From: Mucilaginibacter rigui
GTDB lineage: Bacteria > Bacteroidota > Bacteroidia > Sphingobacteriales > Sphingobacteriaceae
NCBI RefSeq assembly: GCF_014773275.1
Contig: NZ_JACWMW010000001.1
Location: 868,001 to 932,000, forward strand
Direction: 5' to 3'
Length of the DNA: 64,000 nt
The notes below the pieces were generated by a model. It saw nothing but the letters and a program-made list of their open reading frames with translations. It searched no databases and was not told the origin of the DNA. Position numbers and translations under genes: made by a program. Of this stretch, positions 14,502 to 54,889 are shown one piece after another (the stretch's first letter is position 1; each line of letters starts with the position of its first letter).

Positions 14502-14885
14502 TTCAAAAATATAAAGAGTGCAAAGATACCAAAACCATCCCGCTTTTAAGATTATCAGATGATTATCCGCAATCTGGCACAGCTAATCTTTCTAATTGCG
14601 TGGTATGTTCGTCATGATGGTTATTAGACTCACCCGGTCTTTGCTTCGCTTGACCGCCCTCTCTTCGCTGCGCGGAAAGAGGGTCAATCAACTTTTCACC
14701 CTTTTTGCGAAGCATAGAGGGTCGCGCACGAAGTGTCGCGGGGTGAGTAAACTTAGCAAGCGGCAAACAAGATGCCTAACTACATCATTAATTTTAACAT
14801 TGTTAGCGCAAAACCCGCATGATGAAGTTCGTGGCTTGGTATTGTAAACAGATATTTACTACTTTTAGCTGTTAAACCTACAATT
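14502..14885. other. Intergenic region with one divergent palindromic repeat
   Basis: A 384-base gap between the divergent helicase-like and GH172 genes. It holds the repeat at 14629-14747 and otherwise no feature. Small ORFs on either strand coincide with the repeat and are not credible genes. Confidence 0.5.
14629..14747. repeat. Single copy of CTCACCC...GGGTGAG palindromic repeat
   Basis: A 119-bp imperfect palindrome starting CTCACCCGGTC and ending GGGGTGAG, with internal CCCTCTCTTCGCTGCGCGG and CTTTTTGCGAAGCATAGAGG blocks. It belongs to the same family as the five tandem copies at 52696-53437, in the opposite orientation and more diverged. Confidence 0.7.
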
Positions 14886-50859: not shown

Positions 50860-52581
50860 TTATTCAAACCACTTCATAACGTCTTCTTTCGACGGCATGG
50901 GGATTTCCAGTTTCATTTTTTTGCGCATCCCGCCAAGGTCATTAAATACCTTGTTTGGGTTACCTGCCTTTAATTCCTCAACGGTGTTGAAGCCCATTTT
51001 ATTTAATACGGGCACCCACTCGGCCTGTACGCCAATATTGATGAAATCGTCGGCTGTAGCTACTTTGGCTTTTTTCTCGGGGCGCATCTGCGGGAAGAAT
51101 AATACTTCCTGAATGGTGCTTTGATTGGTCATCAGCATCACCAAACGGTCGATACCTATACCAAGGCCCGATGTTGGCGGCATACCATATTCAAGGGCAC
51201 GTAAAAAGTCGTCATCCATCGCCATAGCTTCATCATCGCCACGACCGGCCAGTACCAATTGTTCTTCCAAACGTTCACGCTGATCTATAGGGTCGTTCAA
51301 CTCCGAGTACGCATTGGCTATCTCTTTACCGTTTACAAACAGCTCGAAACGCTCTACCAGGCCGTCTTTAGTACGGTGCTTTTTGGCAAGCGGTGTCATT
51401 TCAATAGGGTAATCGGTAATGTAGGTTGGCTGGATCAGGTTATGTTCTACCTTCGCGCTGAATATCTCGTCTATCAGCTTACCTTTGCCCATGCTGGCAT
51501 CAACCTCAATGGCTAAGTCGGCGCATACTTTACGTAATCCTTCCTCATCCATAGCAGATACATCTATACCTGTATATTTCAGGATCGAATCGTACATCGA
51601 CAGCTTTTCGTATGGGCCTGCAAAGTTTATTTCATGCTTACCTACCTGTACTACCGGGATGCCGTGAACGGCTTTCGCAACAGTTTCTAAACACTCCTCA
51701 ACCATGGCCATCATCCATATATAGTCTTTATAGGCTACATAAATTTCCATAGCGGTAAATTCCGGGTTGTGGGTACGGTCCATACCCTCGTTACGGAACA
51801 TTTTACCAAACTCATAAACACCATCAAAGCCAGCCACAATAAGGCGTTTCAGGTAAAGCTCGTTGGCGATACGTAAAAACAGCGGCATATCAAGCGTATT
51901 ATGATGCGTAGCAAACGGGCGGGCTGCTGCACCACCATGCACAGGCTGCAGGATAGGGGTTTCAACCTCCATCCATCCCTGCAGGTTAAAGTAATTACGC
52001 ATAGCGCTGATCACTTTAGAGCGGTTGATGAAGATGTTTTTATACTCCGGGTTAACGGTTAAGTCCACATAACGCTGGCGGTAACGCATTTCGGGGTCAG
52101 TGAAACCATCATGTATGGTACCATCGTCCTCGCGTTTTACCACCGGCAGTGGTTTTAAGGATTTGGCTAATACAATCAACTCTTCTGTATGCACCGAGAT
52201 CTCGCCGGTTTGGGTAAGGAACACGTAACCTTTTATCCCAACGTAATCGCCAATATCTAAAAGCTTTTTAAATACGGTATTGTAAAGTGTTTTATCCTCG
52301 CCGGGGCAAATATCATCGCGTTTAATGTAGATCTGCACACGGCCGGTACTATCCTGGATCTCGGCAAATGATGCGCTACCCATGATACGGCGCGTCATGA
52401 TACGACCCGCAATTACAACCTGTTTATACTTATCTGGGTCGGCTTTAAAATTATCATTAATATCCTGTGCCCACGCGGTCACATCAAAGGCTTCGGCAGG
52501 GTAAGGGTTTATGCCCAGTTCGCGTAAGTCTTTTAATGATTTACGGCGAAAAATTTCCTGTTCAGATAGTGCAATACTCAT
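50860..52581 (-). CDS. lysS: Lysyl-tRNA synthetase, class II
   Basis: Charges tRNA-Lys in the cytosol; 573 aa. N-terminal OB-fold anticodon domain (about 55-165; [20 protein letters not shown]), then class II motifs 1 ([20 protein letters not shown]), 2 ([20 protein letters not shown]) and 3 ([20 protein letters not shown]). A C-terminal extension of about 60 residues after motif 3 ([20 protein letters not shown] and [20 protein letters not shown]) looks helix-hairpin-helix-like and is common in Bacteroidota LysRS, but is absent from E. coli LysRS. Own terminator downstream. Confidence 0.96.
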
Positions 52582-52695
52582 ATTGTAAAAGGGTATTTTA
52601 TTAAGGCTGCAAAAATAGGATTTTTAACTTAGATATAAGATGTTAGATATGAGATTTGAGAGGGAAGATACAATCTTTGCAGGATGATTATTTAA

Positions 52696-53437
52696 CTCAC
52701 CCCGACCTCGCTTCGCTGGTCGACCCTCTCTGCTTCGCAAAGAGGGTGAAGATAAATGCAAAACCCTCTTTCCGCTTGCGGAGAGAGGGTGGTCGAGCGT
52801 AGCGATGACCGGGTGAGTAAAATTACAAACTTGCAGAATGATCAGTTAACTCACCCCGACCCCGCTTCGCTGGTCGACCCTCTCTGCTTCGCAAAGAGGG
52901 TGAAGAGAAAAGCAAAACCCTCTTTCCGCGCAGCGAAGAGAGGGTGGTCGAGCGCAGCGATGACCGGGTGGGTGAAATTGCAAACTTTGCAGGATGATCA
53001 GTTAACTCACCCCGACTCCGCTTCGCTGGTCGACCCTCTCTGCTCCGCAAAGAGGGTTAAAAAAAAGCAAAACCCTCTTTCCGCGCAGCGAAGAGAGGAT
53101 GGTCGAGCACAGCGATGACCGGGTGAGTAAAATTGCGAACTTTGCAGGATGATCAGTTAACTCACCCCGACTCCGCTTCGCTGGTCGACCCTCTCTGCTC
53201 CGCAAAGAGGATGAAAAAAAGCAAAACCTTCTTTCCGCGCAGCGAAGAGAGGGTGGTCGAGCACAGCGATGATCGGGTGAGTAAACTTGCAAACTTTGCA
53301 GAATGATTAGTTAACTCACCCCGACTCCGCTTCGCTGGTCGACCCTCTCTGCTTCGCAAAGAGGGTGAAGAGAAAAGCAAAACCCTCTTTCCGCGCAGCG
53401 AAGAGAGGGTGGTCGAGCGCAGCGATGACCGGGTGAG
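52696..53437. repeat. Five tandem copies of a ~155-bp palindromic repeat
   Basis: Copies start with CTCACCCCGAC at 52696, 52850, 53006, 53161 and 53315 (periods 154, 156, 155, 154). Each has a core of about 122 bp that begins CTCACCC and usually ends GGGTGAG, whose halves are reverse-complementary: left half GCTTCGCTGGTCGACCCTCT, right half CGAAGAGAGGGTGGTCGAGC. The roughly 30-bp spacer between copies (TTGCAGGATGATCAGTTAAC-like) is also conserved. Copies differ by point changes and small indels. A lone relative is at 14629-14747. Not CRISPR: units are too long and spacers are not unique. Confidence 0.9.
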
Positions 53438-53569
53438 TAAAATCACTAAATGATTGTCCGGTTTGTATGTCAGTCTGCGCTTGTCGAAGACTAAACTGCG
53501 CACACCAGCCAAAGTCTGGCGACCAGATAAAAATCACCAGATCGCCAATTCGCTAAATCACTAATTCAT

Positions 53570-53577
53570 TACCTTTG
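53570..53577 (+). promoter_or_regulatory. -7 box TACCTTTG, leaderless-type, for HAD gene
   Basis: Exact TAnnTTTG ending 5 bases before the ATG at 53583; the transcript would start at or next to the start codon. Confidence 0.5.
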
Positions 53578-53582
53578 CAACC

Positions 53583-54266
53583 ATGGATATTAAAGTGATC
53601 GCATTTGATGCTGATGACACCCTTTGGGTTAACGAACCCTATTTCAGGCAAACAGAAGAGCAATTTTGTACCTTGCTGGCATCGTACGCTTCGCAGCACG
53701 AACTGGAACGCGAGTTGCTCAAAATAGAGATAGCCAACCTTGCGCTTTATGGATATGGCATAAAAGGCTTCATCCTGTCGATGATAGAGGCTGCCATGAA
53801 GATAACCCAAAATACATTGAGTATTGAGGTGGTGGCCGAGATAATGGAACTGGGTAAACAAATGCTCAACCAGCCCATAGAGCTGTTGGATGGAGTGGAA
53901 GACGTACTCGAAACGCTTAAAGGCAAATATCGCCTGGTTGTGGCCACCAAAGGCGATCTGCTCGACCAGGAACGCAAGCTGAAAAAATCGGGCCTGAACC
54001 CTTATTTTCACCATATCGAGATCATGAGCGAGAAGGATGATGCTAATTACATGAAACTTATTAAACACCTTGATATAAAGCCCGAAGAACTTTTCATGGT
54101 AGGCAACTCGCTTAAAAGTGATATTATGCCGGTGCTTAATATTGGCGGGCACGCCGTACATGTGCCATACCATATTACCTGGGCACACGAGCAAATTGAA
54201 GATAGTATTGATAACGAACGTTTTAAAAGCGCTGTTACTATTAAAGATATTTTAGCATATCTGTAA
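53583..54266 (+). CDS. HAD-superfamily hydrolase
   Basis: Phosphatase-type HAD protein of 227 aa. Motif I is VIAFDADDTLWVNEPYF (nucleophile Asp), motif II in LVVATKGD (Thr/Lys pattern), and motif III/IV in LFMVGNSLKSDIMPVLNIGG (Asp). The cap, about residues 20-100, is helical, of the C1 type. Substrate unknown; pyrimidine nucleotidase or phosphoglycolate-type is possible. Two bases separate it from the next gene, so both form an operon. Confidence 0.88.
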   Translation: MDIKVIAFDADDTLWVNEPYFRQTEEQFCTLLASYASQHELERELLKIEIANLALYGYGIKGFILSMIEAAMKITQNTLSIEVVAEIMELGKQMLNQPIELLDGVEDVLETLKGKYRLVVATKGDLLDQERKLKKSGLNPYFHHIEIMSEKDDANYMKLIKHLDIKPEELFMVGNSLKSDIMPVLNIGGHAVHVPYHITWAHEQIEDSIDNERFKSAVTIKDILAYL

Positions 54267-54268
54267 GC

Positions 54269-54889
54269 ATGAAAACGAAAATAGACCTGGATACCTGGTA
54301 CCGCAGAAGCCATTTTGAGTTTTTTAATAGTTTTGAAGAACCCTTTTTTGGCATAACGGCAAATGTTGATGTAACTATTGCTTACCAAAAGGCAAAACAA
54401 CAGGGCGTATCTTTCTTTTTATATTACTTGCACTGTATTTTAAAAGCAGCCAATGGTATTGAATGTTTCAGGTACCGCGTTGAAAATGGCGAGATTTTTT
54501 TATATGATGTGGTACACGTGTCGGCTACGATTAACCGGCCTGATACTACTTTTGGCTTTTCGTATATCGATTACAAACCTGATTTTGCCGAATTTGTTAC
54601 CGGTGCACAGCGGGAGATAGAACGAGTGCAAGGCACAACCGGCCTGGAGTTAAGGCCCTTTGTAAATGTTTTACATGTTTCGGCTATTCCCTGGGTAAAT
54701 TTTACCGGCCTAACACATGCCCGTAATTTTAAGTTTGAAGATAGTATGCCCAAAGTATCGTTAGGTAAGATGACCGAAATAGATGGAAAACTGATGATGC
54801 CGGTTTCTGTGACCGTACACCATGGCTTTATAGATGGCCGGCAGGTTGGCGAGTATATAGATATGTTTCAGCAATTGCTAAACGCCTAA
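54269..54889 (+). CDS. Chloramphenicol acetyltransferase-like acyltransferase
   Basis: Protein of 206 aa with the type-A CAT fold. The catalytic segment VTVHHGFIDGRQVGEYIDMF has His184-His185 and Asp189, matching CAT HHAxxDG. Other family motifs are FFGITANVDVTIAYQKAKQQ, the central VHVSATINRPDTTFGFSYID, and PWVNFTGLTHARNF. CAT-like proteins of Bacteroidota often do not confer resistance, so the acceptor may be a cellular metabolite. It lies 2 bases after the HAD gene. Confidence 0.88.
   Translation: MKTKIDLDTWYRRSHFEFFNSFEEPFFGITANVDVTIAYQKAKQQGVSFFLYYLHCILKAANGIECFRYRVENGEIFLYDVVHVSATINRPDTTFGFSYIDYKPDFAEFVTGAQREIERVQGTTGLELRPFVNVLHVSAIPWVNFTGLTHARNFKFEDSMPKVSLGKMTEIDGKLMMPVSVTVHHGFIDGRQVGEYIDMFQQLLNA

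Follow-up and report, generated by a model that had tools for sequence, protein, structure and literature searches.

A five-copy array upstream of lysS in Mucilaginibacter rigui is probably a local tandem expansion of a REPIN-like repeat

Five direct repeats of a palindromic unit lie between two divergently oriented genes of Mucilaginibacter rigui, one encoding lysine--tRNA ligase (lysS) and the other a HAD-family hydrolase. This locus raises the question of how an ordered series of such units came to be assembled in a single intergenic region, and whether the series serves its host. We address this question using the window, which is the whole 64,000-nucleotide stretch of DNA that was analysed, together with the remainder of the genome and those of its relatives. 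An initial annotation of the window had assigned five repeat starts (52696, 52850, 53006, 53161 and 53315), all of which proved right to the base, and had recorded a lone copy at 14629, which is present on the opposite strand. The features in question are as follows.

50860 to 52581, minus strand: lysS (lysine--tRNA ligase), left neighbour of the array; NF001756, 685.6 bits against a cut-off of 468
52671 to 52695, plus strand: left flank of the array, spacer-like
52696 to 52817, plus strand: array copy 1, CTCACCC...GGGTGAG
52850 to 52972, plus strand: array copy 2, right end GGGTGGG instead of GGGTGAG
53006 to 53127, plus strand: array copy 3, CTCACCC...GGGTGAG
53161 to 53281, plus strand: array copy 4, CTCACCC...GGGTGAG
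53315 to 53437, plus strand: array copy 5, which has the best model score and so lies nearest the consensus of the genome
53583 to 54266, plus strand: HAD-family hydrolase, right neighbour of the array; TIGR01549, over cut-off
14629 to 14747, minus strand: lone copy, 119 bp, a variant whose arm reads CGCG...CGCG, flanked by a divergent gene pair

Each copy in the array is 121–123 bp long, and successive copies are separated by conserved spacers of 28, 30, 30 and 30 nt (copy limits set by HMM). Tandem Repeats Finder reports one array at 52671–53443, with a period of 154, 5.0 copies, 92% matches and a score of 1301; the runner-up row for the whole window scores just 72. Because the final 25 bp of the left flank look like spacer, the amplified unit consists of the element together with approximately 25 bp of left flank, in agreement with the earlier proposal that the spacers of about 30 bp are conserved and that the whole unit was amplified. 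The folding of copy 1 (both strands) and copy 5 (one strand) beats 200 of 200 shuffles, with z-scores from -6.7 to -7.9, and dozens more copies exist in the genome, which together place the array far beyond chance.

Adjacent copies differ from one another at 5–9 positions, and a related genome has a differently composed array at the matching place. Therefore, nothing obvious marks the array as an assembly artefact, a concern that the initial annotation had raised. ORFs of 120 and 116 amino acids run across the array, but these are most likely frames through the repeat and spurious as genes, which is relevant to the annotation of other arrays of this kind. A search of the window with Rfam gave zero matches, and a scan of positions 52500–53700 found neither a promoter nor a terminator-like site. 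Just downstream of the HAD-family hydrolase gene, at 54269–54889, is a CatA-like acetyltransferase gene whose NF000491 score (123.7 bits) is below the cut-off of 270.

The notion that the array might have no other copies in the genome does not hold. A sequence model gives 125 matches over both strands, the weakest of which may be chance, and when each place is counted once these correspond to about 66 copies, of which 53 are long and 13 are short (85 bp or less). The copies are spread over about 50 sites, eight of which are arrays of two to five copies each, and all eight arrays have a single orientation. Half-copies of the element are also present. We surveyed the gene setting of 40 of the approximately 50 sites (56 of the approximately 66 copies), and all 39 that could be classified lie between ORFs, as judged by a long-ORF rule that ignores ORFs of less than 500 nt overlapping a copy. 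This intergenic setting fits REP-like DNA, and among the roles first listed for the unit, that of a mobile palindrome is the likeliest for a dispersed palindromic family of this kind. At one further locus of M. rigui (L037, 2074–4639; C6:648573–651138), two arrays with related spacers of 85–117 nt flank a ClpP-like gene, and between them are also two small genes that by eye resemble a sigma factor and its partner.

The secondary structure that is maintained among copies was evaluated using an alignment (A3) of 71 copies, mostly from other genomes of the genus, with one copy per locus and both ends intact. These were chosen from 184 copies in selected loci, most of which came from a contig scan that fixed several letters of one arm (at least 115 stretches matched, 80 of them listed). 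The model that emerged comprises four local hairpins inside an outer frame, and its elements are given here with the coordinates of array copy 5.

53315 to 53321, plus strand: outer stem CTCACCC, pairs with GGGTGAG at 53431–53437
53322 to 53341, plus strand: hairpin h1 (CGAC...GTCG), covarying
53342 to 53366, plus strand: hairpin h2 (ACCCTCT...AGAGGGT), covarying tip
53382 to 53410, plus strand: hairpin h3 (ACCCTCTTT...AGAGAGGGT), covarying tip
53411 to 53430, plus strand: hairpin h4 (GGTC...GACC), covarying
53431 to 53437, plus strand: outer stem GGGTGAG, pairs with CTCACCC at 53315–53321

Under the four-hairpin model, 91.7% of the cells expected to pair do so across the 71 copies. There are 222 double-changed cells, compared with 62 in shuffles, and 23 pairs with double changes; neither count was equalled in any of 500 shuffles, nor was any of the five measures used, where the shuffles keep relatedness among copies, which could in principle explain part of the covariation. 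Structures slid along the sequence gave at most 68 double-changed cells versus 222. Pairing from arm to arm yielded 26 such cells against 35.5 in shuffles, with 491 of 500 shuffles at least as high, and thus the full-length long hairpin is ruled out as the conserved structure. Minimum-energy folding favours the long hairpin for most single copies, whether as RNA or as DNA. Energy alone therefore goes against the four-hairpin reading, but covariation is the stronger evidence. The original description of an imperfect palindrome giving long hairpins consequently survives in its CTCACCC...GGGTGAG frame and not in its conserved part, which is a set of four local hairpins, two per half. Invariance of the frame itself proves nothing because the frame was used to pick the copies. 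Conservation drops within about 6 bp outside CTCACCC and GGGTGAG, both in the genome's own set of copies and in the set from other genomes, which rules out the spacers as a hidden outer arm for the family, although the arrays of one relative have a common spacer. The element is thus a doublet of two inverted two-hairpin half-units, and in this respect is REPIN-like.

The family is variable within the genus. In a draw of 60 genomes the element occurs in 27, all of them Mucilaginibacter (M. rigui and 26 of 36 relatives), and in none of the genomes from other families of the same class. A family-wide draw of 251 genomes gave 35 with the element, again all Mucilaginibacter (35 of 52); it was detected in none of the 199 genomes that represent 24 other genera. 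No element was found in 17 of the 52 Mucilaginibacter genomes. Absences in this draw as a whole are less sensitive, as only three candidates per genome were scored. As judged from these sequences, the family appears to be confined to Mucilaginibacter as far as searched. Among the matches listed, the named records with the element are mostly Mucilaginibacter; others (L098, L100, L102 and more) are contigs of metagenome-assembled genomes labelled Bacteroidetes only or, in one case, Chitinophagaceae. Such genomes may be either mislabelled Mucilaginibacter or signs of a wider host range.

Copy number also varies at single sites. Among 15 of the 30 available lysS loci, the upstream region carries five copies in M. 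rigui, four (one truncated) in a relative designated G028, one in a second relative (G006) and none in the other 12. In the gap between lysS and the HAD gene of a third relative (G004, L061), which has no element, are two small ORFs that by eye resemble a toxin-antitoxin pair. At the site of the lone copy at 14629, G006 and G004 retain both flanks and the element is missing. Copies within an array are 95.1% identical (42 pairs), compared with 89.4% for copies at different loci of the same genome (1162 pairs), gaps not being counted. The spacers of the M. rigui arrays at lysS and at C7, C8 and C13 are mutually unrelated in the orientation tested, and several resemble the flank beside their own array, which indicates that the element and its local flank were duplicated together.

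G028 exhibits a different pattern. Its arrays at four sites (L246, L247, L248 and L257) have homologous spacers of 34–37 nt, and each of the six pairs beats 500 of 500 shuffles in a test that was run in one orientation, with L249 and one L247 spacer left out. Single copies in G028 have unrelated flanks that lack the common array spacer, and its lysS array has retained its own outer flanks with the common spacer inside. The C8 array of M. rigui has an 11-base likeness to the G028 spacer that no shuffle of 500 reached for L246 or L247, and that is weaker for L248 (p = 0.07) and L257 (p = 0.23). An array of G006 and the C13 array of M. rigui match the junction query at 77–79%. Units at the edge of an array are frequently truncated around the midpoint of the element. 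At L247, the first and third full copies have the same sequence and the one between them differs, which hints at a dimeric repeat. From these sequences, G028 reads as if array units also spread between loci.

We consider it likely that the lysS array arose when a single member of a non-autonomous, REPIN-like family was expanded in tandem on the spot, and that the family spread in the following manner. A trans-acting enzyme that reads single-stranded hairpins would once have dispersed the doublets, and this enzyme would most likely be a Y1/HUH transposase that is either still resident or lost. Arrays could then have grown and become homogenized by unequal recombination or by slippage at the hairpins, and recombination repair between copies might occasionally carry array units, spacer included, to another site. 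SbcCD-type nucleases cleave hairpins. Both the spacer patterns and the truncated edges would follow if array units were copied, through recombination repair, into a single copy that was already in place. No host function is needed to explain the array. A bolder version of these events is that arrays are contagious, with units and their private spacer being copied into pre-existing singles, such that recombination or repair at hairpins, and not transposition alone, drives the spread of a hairpin-doublet family that has no cognate transposase. We hold this version to be rather unlikely.

Several observations stand against the explanation that we favour: no mobiliser is tied to the element, and no target-site duplication, clean empty site or GT[AG]G foot was found. 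Target-site duplications were not visible by eye in 96 end-defined copies. No clean empty site was recovered for the copies at 14629 and C6:519549, where the intergenic regions are too diverged, or for C6:819115, where the element is also present in G028 and G006. The GT[AG]G foot that is typical of REPs is absent from the CTCACCC and GGGTGAG ends and has no constant position in the 71 copies.

The mobiliser was sought by several routes. The M. rigui genome has six matches to PF01797 (Y1), of which three are of the IS200 type and three of the RAYT type, with one of the latter broken into a fragment. Both intact RAYTs pass the cut-off of NCBIfam model NF047646 (REP-associated tyrosine transposase) and carry the signature NH[LIV]H / WQ / YIH[QN]NP that PMC6006769 gives for subclass 2.6, which is exact in one protein and reads YIHHNP in the other. 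It is thus possible, if somewhat doubtful, that the element is a true REPIN whose distant copies are moved in trans by these resident RAYTs (TnpA-REP, subclass 2.6-like). RAYT-type matches occur in 39 of 41 Mucilaginibacter genomes, including all 26 element-bearing relatives, and both relatives that lack a RAYT also lack the element. However, 8 of 10 element-free relatives have such a match as well, and the co-occurrence is weak (26/0 versus 8/2, Fisher p = 0.07; p = 0.015 when the cut was set post hoc; neither value corrects for relatedness). Location likewise argues against mobilization in trans by these proteins. No element lies within 1.5 kb on either side of the two intact M. rigui RAYT genes or the fragment, among 30 RAYT loci, each taken from a different genome of the genus, a single locus has element copies nearby (at a distance of about 0.9 kb), and 1.1 Mb of sequence around element copies, searched alongside a positive control, yielded neither RAYT nor IS200 proteins. 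One M. rigui copy is about 1.6 kb from the RAYT gene of locus L036 (1080–2055; C7, approximately 646.3–647.2 kb). That gene is flanked on both sides by different palindromes, CTGTCGCGAGTTTAGCGCAGCGTAACTCGTGA-like and partly tandem (78 nt at 86-bp spacing), and is a separate REPtron of the subclass 2.6 type. The earlier suggestion of a RAYT-like transposase is hence borne out as regards the existence of RAYT genes, but those found are not flanked by the element.

Other explanations are considerably less probable. The inverted termini, length of about 120 bp and dispersed extragenic copies would suit a MITE, in other words a reduced insertion sequence that is bounded by terminal inverted repeats and depends on a DDE transposase for movement, and a Bacteroidota MITE with an internal minisatellite has been described (PMC4596501). 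Yet four internal hairpins are conserved and not merely the ends, and target duplications were not seen by eye. In addition, a search of the M. rigui genome for the end ACTCACCCSGNC gave 62 matches, nearly all in copies, with no inward-facing pair around a gene. No insertion sequence with these ends is thus visible in that genome, and a MITE is very unlikely. It is equally improbable that the array is retained because its copies serve in RNA as terminators, stabilisers or attenuators. Both strands fold strongly and the hairpins covary, as would be expected of functional RNA, but the classifiable sites include 21 between co-directional genes, 11 between divergent genes and 7 between convergent genes, and hence no surplus exists at gene ends. 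At co-directional sites the copies oriented with and against the genes are near-equal in number, the lysS array itself sits between two divergent genes, and G-T versus A-C mismatches reveal no clear strand bias once two fixed-wobble columns are set aside. Nothing in these settings points to terminators, and the scanned region likewise has no terminator-like site.

A further possibility, which the direct repetition and the conserved ends would suit, is an array that binds proteins or organizes the chromosome, a role suggested for BIMEs; both BIMEs and REPs reportedly serve as binding sites for several proteins (PMC2817692). A copy number that ranges from zero to five at the lysS site among relatives, and the many Mucilaginibacter genomes in which no element was found, speak against this role, to which we assign a slim chance. 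The RNA-structure barrier and the binding array put forward by the initial annotation are accordingly unsupported, with no preference for gene ends or strand.

Local tandem expansion probably accounts for the array. Why REP and REPIN clusters form ordered tandem series is a question raised in the literature, and this genus offers orthologous sites with zero, one, four and five copies. The arrays of G028, with their common spacer, and the orthologous sites make cluster growth and transfer traceable by comparing strains. The element also adds a covarying, genus-specific repeat family in need of a mobiliser. A published Mucilaginibacter repeat of such a kind was not found in the open-licence PMC literature.

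The closest published parallel is provided by the bacterium Pseudomonas fluorescens SBW25, whose REPINs form 16 ordered clusters. In these, nearly identical doublets are repeated in tandem, “including the flanking sequences”, and the clusters are said to indicate “a second mechanism” (PMC3116915). The Mucilaginibacter element resembles these REPINs in being an inverted doublet of a hairpin unit that is dispersed between genes, with singlets as remnants, and in forming clusters that are direct tandem repeats of the doublet and its flanking sequence. It differs in that each half comprises two hairpins and about 60 bp, whereas the half of a REPIN is one short REP. Furthermore, it lacks the GTAG tag, no cluster was seen beside a RAYT gene, and it occupies about 50 sites versus hundreds.

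Parallels also exist with more distant repeats. PMC3733652 describes REPs that recur together with the DNA beside them, as well as CGTC repeats that have no transposase. The CGTC-tagged REPs resemble the element in being palindromic, in having no dedicated transposase and in occurring in some Bacteroidetes, but the element is much longer and double, and CGTC does not form a constant end, being found within 14 nt of either end in 9 of 71 copies. The TIR families of TIRYT transposases (described in parts of PMC3733652, and as subclass 2.1 in PMC6006769) likewise form dimers and clusters. Their motif GGGGWSAS fits GGGGTGAG, the opposite-strand reading of the left end of the element, in 62 of 71 copies, and it fits one end or the other in 68 of them. 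The match is eight bases long, three of its positions are degenerate, and that end was itself used to select the copies. This fit may be taken as an unproven lead; the subclass 2.1 signature is absent from the six Y1 proteins of M. rigui.

From the same phylum come the structures that flank the subclass 2.6 TnpA-REP genes of Bacteroidetes, as far as the relevant passages of PMC6006769 describe them. These too are atypical and have no GT[AG]G, and a transposase of the matching subclass is encoded in M. rigui; compared by description, those structures flank their gene whereas the element does not. Measured against REPs and REPINs in general, the element has an inverted hairpin pair, many dispersed extragenic copies and a RAYT encoded in the genome, and it lacks the GT[AG]G tetranucleotide at the hairpin foot and copies flanking a RAYT gene. 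Because the tag and the RAYT association are two defining REPIN traits, we file the element as a variant and not as a member. By analogy, it works like a REPIN.
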